The notes under the pieces were generated by a model. It was given only the letters and a program-made list of their open reading frames with translations, had not been told where the DNA came from and did not search any database. Source: Frankiales bacterium (GTDB taxonomy: Bacteria; Actinomycetota; Actinomycetes; Mycobacteriales; Geodermatophilaceae). From it: 64,000 nt of DNA. Position 1 is the stretch's first letter; the number at the start of each line of letters is the position of its first letter. The stretch lies in assembly GCA_025465155.1 (NCBI GenBank), contig JAODNJ010000212.1, positions 62,001 to 126,000 on the forward strand, read 5' to 3'. A program made the translations under genes and the position numbers. Shown here piece after piece: positions 46,079 through 56,184 of the stretch.

Positions 46079-46873
46079 ATGGAAGCCGAAGCCGAAGCCG
46101 AAGCCGGAGCCGAAGCCGGTCAGGTAGAACCGAAACGCCGGCAGACCATCCAATCGGTCGCCCGCGCCTCGCGAATTCTGCTCGCCATCGCCCGGTCGCC
46201 GCAGGGGCTTACTGCAACCGAGGTCGCCGCTCTCGTCGACCTCACCATGCCGACGACCTACCACCTGCTCGCCACCCTCGAAGACGAGGGGCTGCTGGGC
46301 AAGGGCGCCGGCAAGCGGTACCAGCTCGGCTCGGGCGCGGTCGACATCGCCAACGCGCCGGGGCTCCGCCCCCGCGTGAACCCTCGGCACCGTGAAGCGC
46401 TCACCCAACTCGCCGACGCCACCCAGGAGACGGCCTACCTCACCGGATGGTTTCGCGGCGAGATCCGCATCCTCGCCCGGGTCGAGGGCTCGCTCGCCGT
46501 GCGCGTCGCCGGGCTGGAGGTCGGCCTCACTACCGACGTGCACGCGCGGGCCAGCGCCAAGGTGCTGCTCGCGTACGCCGACGACGACCAGCGTTCGTCA
46601 ATTCTCGACGGCTATCACTACACCCGGTTCACCGACGTGACGGTGAGCGACCGGCAGAGCTTCGAGACGCAGCTGGCCGAGATTCGCCGCACCGGAATCC
46701 TCTACGATCGTGGCGAGTACCGCGACGACGTGCGCTCGCTGAGCGCGCCCATCCGCCACGAGGGCCGCGTGATCGCGGCGCTCGCGGTCACCGTGCCCTC
46801 CGTGCGCTACGAGCGCACCGAGCCCGACGTGGTCGCCGCCCTGCTGGCCGCCGTCGCCTTCGCCGAGCACTAG
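46079..46873 (+). CDS. IclR family transcriptional regulator
   Basis: RRQTIQSVARASRILLAIARSPQGLTATEVAALVDLTMPTTYHLLATLEDEGLLGKGAGKRYQLG. Confidence 0.92.
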   Translation: MEAEAEAEAGAEAGQVEPKRRQTIQSVARASRILLAIARSPQGLTATEVAALVDLTMPTTYHLLATLEDEGLLGKGAGKRYQLGSGAVDIANAPGLRPRVNPRHREALTQLADATQETAYLTGWFRGEIRILARVEGSLAVRVAGLEVGLTTDVHARASAKVLLAYADDDQRSSILDGYHYTRFTDVTVSDRQSFETQLAEIRRTGILYDRGEYRDDVRSLSAPIRHEGRVIAALAVTVPSVRYERTEPDVVAALLAAVAFAEH

Positions 46874-50588: not shown

Positions 50589-52082
50589 ATGACCGACACG
50601 ATTGAGACGGGTTCTTCGCTTGTCACCGGGCTTTTCATCGACGGGCGGCAGCGCACGACCGAGCAGACCATCGAGGTGGTCGACCCCGGCAAACCGGGCG
50701 TGGTCGTCGGTTATGCGGCCGCAGCTTCGACCGCCGACGTCGACGATGCGATCGATGCGGCGCGCCGCGCGTACCCTGCGTGGTCTGGCCTGTCTGCTCA
50801 GCAGCGGGCCGCCGCGATGACCGAGGCGGTCGCCGACCTCGCCGAGCACCGCGACGAGGATGCCCAGATTCTCTCTCAAGAGAACGGAAAGATTCGCTTC
50901 GAGGCGTTCATCGATGCGCTCGTCTTCGAGATTCGCTGGCAGCTCGCCGTGTCGATCGCCGACGACGTGGAGCAGGCCCGGGTGCTCGAGCCTGCCCCGG
51001 GCATCCCGGTGCGCACGGTCGTGCAGCATCAGTCGCTCGGGGTCGTCACGATCATCGTGCCGTTCAACTGGCCGATCGCCATACTCGCGGCGTCGCTGCC
51101 GCATGCCCTGCTCGCGGGCAACACTGTCATCGTGAAGCCACCGCCCTCGGCGCCGCTGGCCACGGCGCGGCTGGTCGAACGCATTGCGGCGAAGCTCCCG
51201 GCGGGCGTGCTCAACGTCGTGACCGGCCGCGACGCCGACATGAGCGCGCTGATCGAGCACGACAGTGTTGCGAAGGTGCACTTCACCGGCAGTGTGGGCG
51301 GGGGCAAGCGCATCATGCAGCTCGCTTCGCAGTCGCTCACCCGTGTCGTGCTCGAGCTCGGCGGCAACGACCCGGCGATTCTGCTCGAAGACGCGATCAT
51401 CGACGACGAGCACCTCGACCGCCTCTACTCGTCGATCTTCGACAGCACCGGTCAGATCTGCATGAACGCGAAGCGCATCTACGTTCACCGTTCGCGGCTC
51501 GACGAGGTCGTCGACGGCCTGTCGGCCCGCCTCGACAAAGCCGTCATCGGTTACGGGCTCGATGCCGATACCACCCTCGGGCCGTTGCATTCGCCGATTC
51601 AGAAAGCCTTCGTGCTCGACCTCATCGAAGAGGCGAAGGCCTCGGGTGCCGATGTGCGCGAGTTCGGCGAGCTGCCGACGCGGGCGGATCTCGTCGGGGG
51701 CAACTTTCTACGCCCGGCGCTGGTCATCGACCCCGACCCGGCGCTGCGGGTCGTCACCCAGGAACAGTTCGGCCCGGTCATCCCGCTGCTGCCGTTCGAC
51801 ACCGAAGACGAGGCGGTCGCGGCGGCCAACGACACGTGGGGTGGCCTGTGTGCGTCGGTCTGGACCGCCGACCCGGCCGCGGCTCAGCGGGTGGCTTCGC
51901 AGATCGTGGCCGGCTACGTGTGGATCAACGACCACGGCGCAGCGCGGCTCGACCTGCGTGCGCCCTTCGGCGGCATGAAGTCGAGCGGTTTCGGTCGCGA
52001 GCAGGGCATCGACGGCATCCGTTCCTTCCAAGACACCCGCGCCATCGCGGTGCTGCAGCCCCCCGCCCCCGCCTCGTCGTAA
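50589..52082 (+). CDS. aldehyde dehydrogenase family protein
   Basis: VPFNWPIAILAASLPHALLAGNTVIVKPPPSAPL; VLELGGNDPAILLED; GQICMNAKRIYVH. Confidence 0.93.
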   Translation: MTDTIETGSSLVTGLFIDGRQRTTEQTIEVVDPGKPGVVVGYAAAASTADVDDAIDAARRAYPAWSGLSAQQRAAAMTEAVADLAEHRDEDAQILSQENGKIRFEAFIDALVFEIRWQLAVSIADDVEQARVLEPAPGIPVRTVVQHQSLGVVTIIVPFNWPIAILAASLPHALLAGNTVIVKPPPSAPLATARLVERIAAKLPAGVLNVVTGRDADMSALIEHDSVAKVHFTGSVGGGKRIMQLASQSLTRVVLELGGNDPAILLEDAIIDDEHLDRLYSSIFDSTGQICMNAKRIYVHRSRLDEVVDGLSARLDKAVIGYGLDADTTLGPLHSPIQKAFVLDLIEEAKASGADVREFGELPTRADLVGGNFLRPALVIDPDPALRVVTQEQFGPVIPLLPFDTEDEAVAAANDTWGGLCASVWTADPAAAQRVASQIVAGYVWINDHGAARLDLRAPFGGMKSSGFGREQGIDGIRSFQDTRAIAVLQPPAPASS

Positions 52083-52111: not shown

Positions 52112-52203
52112 CCTCCAAATCGACCGATAGAATGCCTCCAAATCGACCGATAGAAATCCTCCAAATCGATCGATAGAGTGCCTCCTAATCGACCGATAGC
52201 ATC
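52112..52203. repeat. four tandem 23-bp direct repeats (CCTCCAAATCGACCGATAGAATG-like)
   Basis: Units at 52112-52134, 52135-52157, 52158-52180, 52181-52203, no spacers. Confidence 0.95.
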
Positions 52204-52239
52204 CATCGTGGTTGTAGAGTGGCCTCGAAGGGGCAACGA

Positions 52240-53514
52240 ATGACGGACGATTACCAGCCACGCATCATCGACACGGCCCTTGATGAACTATTTCCGCACT
52301 TCGCCGCTGTGGCTATCGAGGGCGCTCGGGCTATTGGCAAGACCTCGACCGCGCGACAGCGAGCAGCAACGGTAATCGATCTTGATCTGCCAGAAGTGCG
52401 AGCGATTGTCGAAGCTGACCCTTCGTACATCAGGCGAGCCGCGACACCGGTACTTATCGATGAATGGCAGATACTGCCCGAGGTGTGGGACCGAGTTCGG
52501 CGCCTGGTCGATGAAGACGCCACCGGAGGGCGGTTTATTCTCGCAGGCAGTGCCTCGCCGCAGGGCGCCAGAATCCACTCTGGCGCAGGCCGAATTCAAG
52601 GCTTTCGCATGCGACCGCTCTCCCTGGCTGAGCGCAATCTGGCGTCGCCGACAGTACATGTAGCGGATCTTCTTGCAGGAAGATCGGCGCCAATCGGTGG
52701 AGAAACTGCGGTGGAACTCCCGGACTACGTGCACGAGATCGTCGGGTCGGGGTTCCCGCAAGCCAGAGTCATGCCCGATCGACCCCGGCAGGTCTGGCTG
52801 GACAACTACATCAATCGGCTCGTCACTCACGACTTCAGTGAGCAGGGTCAGCCCGTTCGTCAGCCCGAAACTCTGCTGGGCTGGCTCCGCGGCTATGCGA
52901 GGGCCACCGCGACGTCAACCACGTGGGCGAAGATCTCGGCCAGTGTGGAGCCAGGTGAATCGAATCCACCCGCAGCCTCGACTGCGCTCAGGTACCGGGA
53001 CATCCTGAGCAGTCTGTACATTCTGGATCAGGTCGAGGCGTGGTCACCAAGCCGCCGCGTCATCGCCCGCGCGGCGACGGCGCCAAAGCATTTTCTCGTA
53101 GACCCTGCACTCTCGGTACGACTCCTCGGGCTCAACGAAACGCGCTTGATGTCAGCTGGTCAGGGCACCGTGAACGACGGGGATCGAACGCGTCTCGGTG
53201 TATTCTTCGAAGCCCTTGTCGCTTTGAGCTTGAAGACATACGCGGCTGCAAACGATGCGAGCCTCAGCCATTTTCGTGACCGGGACGGTGTGCGTGAGAT
53301 CGATTTCGTCATACACAAGGGCGATTCGACAGCGGTGGCGGTAGAGGTGAAGCTGAAGGCGACTGTCAGCGATGACGACGTGCGACACCTTCTCTGGCTT
53401 CGGGATGCTCTGCCTGACCAAGTCGTTGACATGGTCGTCATTACTACGGGTCCGTATGCTTATCGGCGGCCTGACGGAGTGGCGGTCGTGCCTCTTGCGT
53501 TGTTGACTGCGTAA
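52240..53514 (+). CDS. AAA+ ATPase with DUF4143-type C-terminal domain (PD-(D/E)XK-like)
   Basis: FAAVAIEGARAIGKTSTARQRA (Walker A-like), ATPVLIDEWQILPEVWDRVRR, FILAGSA; C-terminal REIDFVIHKGDSTAVAVEVKLK. Confidence 0.88.
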   Translation: MTDDYQPRIIDTALDELFPHFAAVAIEGARAIGKTSTARQRAATVIDLDLPEVRAIVEADPSYIRRAATPVLIDEWQILPEVWDRVRRLVDEDATGGRFILAGSASPQGARIHSGAGRIQGFRMRPLSLAERNLASPTVHVADLLAGRSAPIGGETAVELPDYVHEIVGSGFPQARVMPDRPRQVWLDNYINRLVTHDFSEQGQPVRQPETLLGWLRGYARATATSTTWAKISASVEPGESNPPAASTALRYRDILSSLYILDQVEAWSPSRRVIARAATAPKHFLVDPALSVRLLGLNETRLMSAGQGTVNDGDRTRLGVFFEALVALSLKTYAAANDASLSHFRDRDGVREIDFVIHKGDSTAVAVEVKLKATVSDDDVRHLLWLRDALPDQVVDMVVITTGPYAYRRPDGVAVVPLALLTA

Positions 53515-55316: not shown

Positions 55317-55398
55317 GACTCCAGGCTCTCACGAGTGTGGCCATTCGACGTTCGTGCGGGTACGCCGACCTCAGCGCATCGACCTCAGCGCATCGGCG

Positions 55399-56184
55399 TC
55401 AGCGCATCATCCAGACCGGGCTGCGTTTTTCGCGGAAGGCGGCGACCCCTTCTCTCATGTCGGCCGTTCCGAAGGCCTCGGCCAGTTGAGACTGCAGAAC
55501 CTTCAGAGCCTCGGCGAGAGGCAGGTCGCGGGTGACATCGATGGCCTCTTTGCCGAGCCGCATGAGAAGGGGCGATTTGGCGGCGATGCGTCTGGCCCAC
55601 GCGAGCACCTCGTCGTCGAAGTCGGCGTCGGCCACGACACGGTTGACGAAGCCGATCTCGCGACCCTCGGCCGCGGTGACGAGGTCACCGATCATCATCA
55701 GTTCGTTCGCCTTCATGCGGTCGATGTTGCGGTAGATCAGCGCCGAGATCATGAAGGGAAAGACTCCGACGTTGATCTCGGGGCAGCCGAATTTCGCCGA
55801 CTCCTTCGCGATGACGAGGTCGCAAGCCAGCGCCAGACCGAAGGCACCGGCAAGAACGTCGCCGTTCGCAGCACAGATCACCGGTTTGCCGAGAGAGCCG
55901 AGCAGGGTGAACAGGCGGGGAAAGCGGCCGAGGCCTTCGTATTTCTCGGTGATGGGGCGATCGTCGGCGAAGGCCTTGAGGTCTCCGCCGGCTGAGAAGA
56001 TGCGGTCGTGAGACGAACGGATGACGACCACCCGCACCTCGCTGTCGTCGCGAGCCGCCTCGAGTGCCGCAAGCAGCTGGTCGACGAGCGCATCGCTCAG
56101 CGCGTTGCGCGTAGCCGGGCTGTCGAGAACGACGACGGCGATGCCCGGATCCGGTCGATCGGTGCGAACAAGGGTGTCGGTCAT
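55399..56184 (-). CDS. enoyl-CoA hydratase/isomerase
   Basis: IFSAGGDLKAFADD; ICAANGDVLAGAFGLALACDLVIAKESAKFGCPEINVGVFP. Confidence 0.92.
   Translation of the reverse strand: MTDTLVRTDRPDPGIAVVVLDSPATRNALSDALVDQLLAALEAARDDSEVRVVVIRSSHDRIFSAGGDLKAFADDRPITEKYEGLGRFPRLFTLLGSLGKPVICAANGDVLAGAFGLALACDLVIAKESAKFGCPEINVGVFPFMISALIYRNIDRMKANELMMIGDLVTAAEGREIGFVNRVVADADFDDEVLAWARRIAAKSPLLMRLGKEAIDVTRDLPLAEALKVLQSQLAEAFGTADMREGVAAFREKRSPVWMMR

Follow-up and report, generated by a model that had tools for sequence, protein, structure and literature searches.

The repeat array and the ATPase gene

We analysed a 64-kb window of DNA from a Frankiales bacterium (contig JAODNJ010000212.1; positions are those of the whole window), in which a tandem array of 23-bp repeats lies between an aldehyde dehydrogenase gene, ending at 52082, and the gene of an AAA_14-DUF4143 ATPase, which starts at 52240. 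We consider the array a probable operator of that gene. An earlier, sequence-only reading of the locus had described four contiguous units, each of exactly 23 bp, ending 36 bp before the ATPase ATG, and both the coordinates (Table 1; units begin at 52112, 52135, 52158 and 52181 and total 92 bp) and Tandem Repeats Finder agree: the array scores 141, the maximum of the window, with the runner-up at 72. The motif ATCGAYCGAT, said to be present in each unit, is indeed there; this 10-bp palindrome is perfect in unit 3 and has one mismatched pair in each other unit, and its four occurrences in the window all fall inside the array. Likewise, the core ATCGAYCGATAG has four copies in the 5.2-Mb genome, all of them here. 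A search with the 19-bp core, allowing up to 3 mismatches, found no array in 25 congeneric genomes, and the repeat was not found in viral contigs either. The array has a GC content of 48%, compared with 60% for the ATPase gene and 67–69% for the flanking genes. A structured RNA was considered and rejected: Rfam gave no match, and folding of the array-leader gave z = -1.1.

The ATPase matches the PADLOC profile PDLC04790 (PDC-S01) over residues 1–423 (E=3.1e-78), its best match in the defence library, with PF13173 and PF13635 both above the cut-off. By profile it is therefore a member of PDC-S01, a phage-defence candidate that combines AAA_14 and DUF4143 as an ATPase fused to PD-(D/E)XK. Residues G33, K34, D74, E75, E353 and D355 are invariant in the family, and E369 and K371 nearly so. 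The AlphaFold2 model (predicted local distance difference test score, pLDDT, 88.8; predicted template-modelling score, pTM, 0.91), built from an alignment without its plasmid/phage rows, has a winged-helix region of which helix 246–258 would, from the topology of the fold, be the expected recognition helix. Sequence search gave no significant homologue of solved structure; Foldseek matches of the model included the archaeal AAA+ ATPase Sso1545, plant nucleotide-binding leucine-rich repeat (NLR) resistosomes and ORC/Cdc6 on origin DNA. The ATPase is present in a single copy in the source genome and was not found in the 25 congeners searched, where an empty-site comparison met non-conserved synteny and gave no clean boundary. 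A phage origin of the module was considered and rejected, as IMG/VR is practically without relatives (none for the window protein, one for the Bacteroides homologue).

Table 1. Features of the repeat–ATPase locus, in window coordinates
Feature	Position	Strand	Remarks
Repeat unit 1	52112–52134	+	CCTCCAAATCGACCGATAGAATG
Repeat unit 2	52135–52157	+	CCTCCAAATCGACCGATAGAAAT
Repeat unit 3	52158–52180	+	CCTCCAAATCGATCGATAGAGTG; perfect palindrome ATCGATCGAT
Repeat unit 4	52181–52203	+	CCTCCTAATCGACCGATAGCATC; should 52215–52220 be the -10, would span the -35 region (predicted placement)
Putative -10 hexamer TAGAGT (TANNNT)	52215–52220	+	analogous to the TANNNT peak seen in homologues
Putative Shine-Dalgarno AAGGGG	52228–52233	+	6 nt before ATG; inferred from sequence
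AAA_14-DUF4143 ATPase, 424 aa	52240–53514	+	PADLOC PDC-S01
AAA+ ATPase domain, residues 1–178	52240–52773	+	Walker A G28..GKT35; Walker B D74 E75
Winged-helix region, residues 180–285	52777–53094	+	AlphaFold2 model; domain name inferred from secondary structure
Residues 246–247	52975–52980	+	start of modelled recognition helix; co-vary with unit columns 5 and 9–11
PD-(D/E)XK-like domain, residues 286–421	53095–53502	+	fold assigned by motif; PDC-S01 so described in PMC12988326
R348	53281–53283	+	tentative covariation with unit column 0; weak once relatives are excluded

Elsewhere in the window, the second-best tandem repeat is a 14-bp unit present 3.1 times at 55366–55408 (CGACCTCAGCGCAT), and an IclR-type regulator has at its N-terminus a Glu/Ala run encoded by GAAGCC, repeated about six times at 46082–46118.

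Conserved spacing and private sequence

At the first three homologues examined, which came from other genera of the host's family, the repeats differed in sequence from those of the window but kept the 23-bp period. We fetched 80 homologues (81 loci) and calculated autocorrelation over the 180 bp preceding the gene; lag 23 scored highest at 68 of the 81 loci and lag 46 at another 10. Mean best-window identity was 0.69 at lag 23 and, multiples of 23 aside, about 0.34–0.41 at other lags, while a control region 1.3 kb upstream of the gene gave 0.38 at lag 23. In a larger set of genomes, 151 of 161 homologues have a 23-bp array directly upstream that exceeds the 99% null, mostly with three or four copies (range 2–6). 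These 151 arrays comprise 150 distinct unit sequences, with a unit identity of 0.63 within arrays versus 0.40 between them. The sample was mostly actinobacterial and lay outside the archaea; at about 30–48% protein identity, significant 23-bp arrays were also found in Chlorobi, Bacteroides, Collinsella, Lentilactobacillus, Sulfitobacter and faecal contigs. What is conserved across the family is thus the period, the position and a loose plan of the unit, and the unit sequence is private to the locus.

The same privacy is seen inside single genomes. One genome (G228) has four paralogues with four different arrays, and other genomes are alike; in one Collinsella strain two proteins that are 56% identical have unrelated arrays. 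Two strains with 96%-identical proteins share the unit core, with a diverged spacer. Private arrays would explain how many paralogues could share a genome without cross-regulation. Some actinobacterial genomes (G842, G1024, G922, G1032 and G1034) have ten or more DUF4143 matches each, and in Actinomyces oris (locus L139:1-3802) the ATPase gene adjoins a type I-U cas3 gene.

In a wider sample of 105 DUF4143 loci from the same phylum, a significant period was detected in 35, with lags of 23 (12 loci), 32 (8), 33 (7) and 46 (2), and others seen once each; periods of 22/23 and 32/33 thus predominate. Ten proteins taken from these loci, drawn from both period classes, match PDC-S01 profiles without exception. 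Both spacings can coexist: upstream of one DUF4143 homologue (L214:785-873) the core TTCCCACATT recurs at 23, 33 and 23 bp within one array. About one helical turn separates the 23 class from the 32/33 class, a difference that would fit neighbouring bound proteins touching on the same helical face. An 18-bp period at another locus (L279) was discounted, as it looks like a glycine-rich coding repeat. On a Pseudomonas mendocina plasmid (L327, upstream of 1492) a 57-bp repeat, near 23+33, precedes a DUF4143 gene.

Unit bases that follow protein residues

We aligned 151 protein–unit pairs, with unit rotations fitted by expectation-maximisation, on which the unit alignment depends, and scored 412 protein columns against 40 permutations. 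The top weighted pairs were S247 with unit column 10 (z=9.1) and R348 with column 0 (z=8.5), the permutation maximum being 7.4. Ancestry can inflate such scores, and the figures to trust are those of the leave-relatives-out and independent-pair tests. Of the 412 protein columns, residue 246 was the top match to unit column 5 in two of three bands of equal protein divergence, and the runner-up in the remaining band. With relatives of >60% identity excluded, residue 246 predicted the base at column 5 in 0.74 of cases versus a baseline of 0.33, Lys going with G and Arg with T; residue 247 predicted column 10 at 0.61 (baseline 0.44) and column 9 at 0.61 (baseline 0.52). The pair R111 with column 5, which had a strong weighted score, fell to the baseline in this test and was dropped.

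For the independent-pair test the tree was built without the tested columns, and 79 control columns were used. Seven of 17 tree-independent Lys/Arg pairs at residue 246 showed the expected G/T change and none the opposite one; no control column equalled residue 246. Two loci provide a near single-base natural swap (L041, Lys, GATCGG; L059, Arg, GATCTG). Unit sequence, then, tracks the two residues that open the modelled recognition helix, 246 with column 5 and, more weakly, 247 with columns 9–11. Most simply read, this covariation points to the ATPase itself as the reader of the repeat, in which case Lys or Arg at 246 paired with G or T at column 5 would be a natural residue-to-base code.

A proposed self-specific operator and its alternatives

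TANNNT ends 6, 7 or 8 nt upstream of the start codon in 75, 17 and 7 homologues, respectively (99 of 145; 1.55 expected by chance per position). Such spacing is that of a leaderless actinobacterial promoter. In most homologues the array abuts the start codon, placing the repeats on or beside the gene's predicted promoter, and the last unit overlaps the -10 of what is probably a leaderless promoter. The array is placed somewhat further upstream in the window and in its sister clade; in the window, TAGAGT and AAGGGG could plausibly serve as the promoter and ribosome-binding site of the ATPase gene.

These results bear on what the sequence-only reading had made of the array, namely arrayed dimer-binding sites or an unstable promoter spacer, perhaps for autoregulation of the ATPase. 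Arrayed protein-binding sites and autoregulation are both supported, as predictions, by the 23-bp array that recurs upstream of nearly all homologues, by a unit that follows the protein's residues and by the position over the promoter in most homologues. The dimer dyad is not: a 10-bp dyad with at most one mismatched pair occurs in 36 of 151 family units versus about 42 after shuffling, and since family dyads are no commoner than in shuffled units, we regard the units as asymmetric direct repeats and the palindrome in the window as a local accident. An unstable spacer likewise lacks support, given a period conserved across phyla, although copy number varies. The proposed search for the repeat beside DUF4143 genes elsewhere missed the literal string and found instead the arrays of other sequence described above.

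We put at roughly two in three the probability that the repeats are a self-specific operator array, in which the asymmetric units are bound by the ATPase encoded downstream, which so represses itself. The AAA+/winged-helix/PD-(D/E)XK protein would bind directly and cooperatively, head-to-tail, with one protomer or assembly step per 23-bp unit, and once bound would hold its own promoter down; occupation of the last unit would presumably block RNA polymerase. Release might come through the ATPase state, through oligomerisation or through depletion during infection, the last of these supposing an antiviral function. Each copy would evolve its unit sequence together with its recognition residues, leaving paralogues in one genome insulated from one another.

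Several observations weigh against this model. No significant array was detected in Thermus, Agrobacterium and some other distant homologues, nor at 70 of the 105 loci in the wider DUF4143 sample. At the window locus 36 bp separate the array from the ATG, and the putative -10 lies outside the array, so activation is as possible there as repression. The gain over baseline for residue 247 is modest. Residues 348 and 111 give none with relatives of >60% identity excluded, which makes contacts outside the winged helix uncertain. Of the remaining Lys/Arg pairs at 246, 7/17 changed to other bases and 3/17 were unchanged.

It is also possible, if unlikely, that the array is more than an operator, a defence trigger or licensing site on which the ATPase-nuclease is parked as a primed assembly like those of signal transduction ATPases with numerous domains (STAND). 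The kinds of structure matched by the model would suit such a sensor platform, as would the helical phase kept over 23 and 33 bp and the location of R348, which may read column 0, a few residues before catalytic E353/D355. However, a simple operator explains the placement of the array on the promoter, as seen in most homologues, and the R348 signal is weak once relatives are left out. We hold as equally tentative the extension of this idea to PDC-S01 as a whole, in which its members would be self-addressed DNA sentinels: a STAND-like ATPase-nuclease would sit on a private, 23/33-bp-phased array by means of the residue/base code, and loss or disturbance of the assembly would both derepress the gene and arm the nuclease.

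Binding by a different, host-encoded regulator, or a role of the array as tandem -10 promoters, is improbable. TANNNT-like motifs do occur in many units, and the last one fits a leaderless -10, but tandem promoters need no locus-specific sequence beyond the -10 hexamer. A single host regulator is hard to reconcile with the different arrays of paralogues in one genome, and the residues that unit bases follow are those of the ATPase itself. More improbable still is that the array serves replication or partition as a set of iterons, or transposition or homing of the module as a target. Direct repeats of 22–23 bp resemble plasmid iterons, and some homologues are on plasmids, but many loci are on long chromosomal contigs, the module is virtually absent from IMG/VR and no clean empty site was found. 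The genes flanking the array in the window are metabolic (aldehyde dehydrogenase, glyoxalase and major facilitator superfamily (MFS) transporters), with no linked replication functions among them. Chance tandem duplication without function, for which the uniqueness of the window repeat might be cited, is refuted for the family by the period and position shared in 151/161 homologues and several phyla, and is very improbable for the window locus.

A self-specific operator, as favoured here, would give PDC-S01 a biochemical handle, as nearly every close homologue is accompanied by a gene-specific DNA target, from which the bound DNA (as predicted), the reading residues and a probable mode of regulation can be named. 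PMC12988326 places PDC-S01 fourth in frequency among the predicted defences of prokaryotes, with many of the genes in archaea, and describes validation as still pending for most PDCs; despite this abundance, the papers found show no mechanism for it. Nor do the portions consulted of the PDC-S01 and DUF4143 papers describe an upstream repeat array or autoregulation. A literature search, which took in few subscription papers or preprints, returned nothing related on 23-bp tandem or direct repeats. In Thermus, TT_P0211 (AAA_14, DUF4143) is among the genes upregulated when TtAgo and a plasmid are both present (PMC4406477).

Two kinds of DNA-binding protein share parts of this architecture. Plasmid Rep proteins are winged-helix proteins that bind iterons, direct repeats of about 22 bp near their own gene; the present family differs in having AAA+ and PD-(D/E)XK domains and in being often chromosomal. 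Orc1/Cdc6 and archaeal Sso1545 (2fna; TMq 0.41, 13% identity) have in common with it an AAA+ domain plus a winged helix and are moderately similar in overall fold, but Orc1/Cdc6 mark origins, not their own promoters. The closest parallel in regulation that we found is RptR of a defence island of enteropathogenic Escherichia coli (EPEC), where the first gene encodes a protein that binds direct repeats overlapping the -10 of a defence promoter and needs two or more of them for full repression (PMC12255303). Here, too, direct repeats lie at the promoter of a defence candidate and overlap the -10 in most homologues. RptR, however, is a separate 9-kDa repressor of 9-bp repeats with a 6-bp palindrome (PMC12255303), whereas the presumed binder here is the ATPase-nuclease itself, and the units are 23 bp long, asymmetric and different in specificity from locus to locus. 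The operator-array principle is already known; what appears to be new is a family-wide, self-specific and phase-locked array on a defence-candidate ATPase-nuclease.
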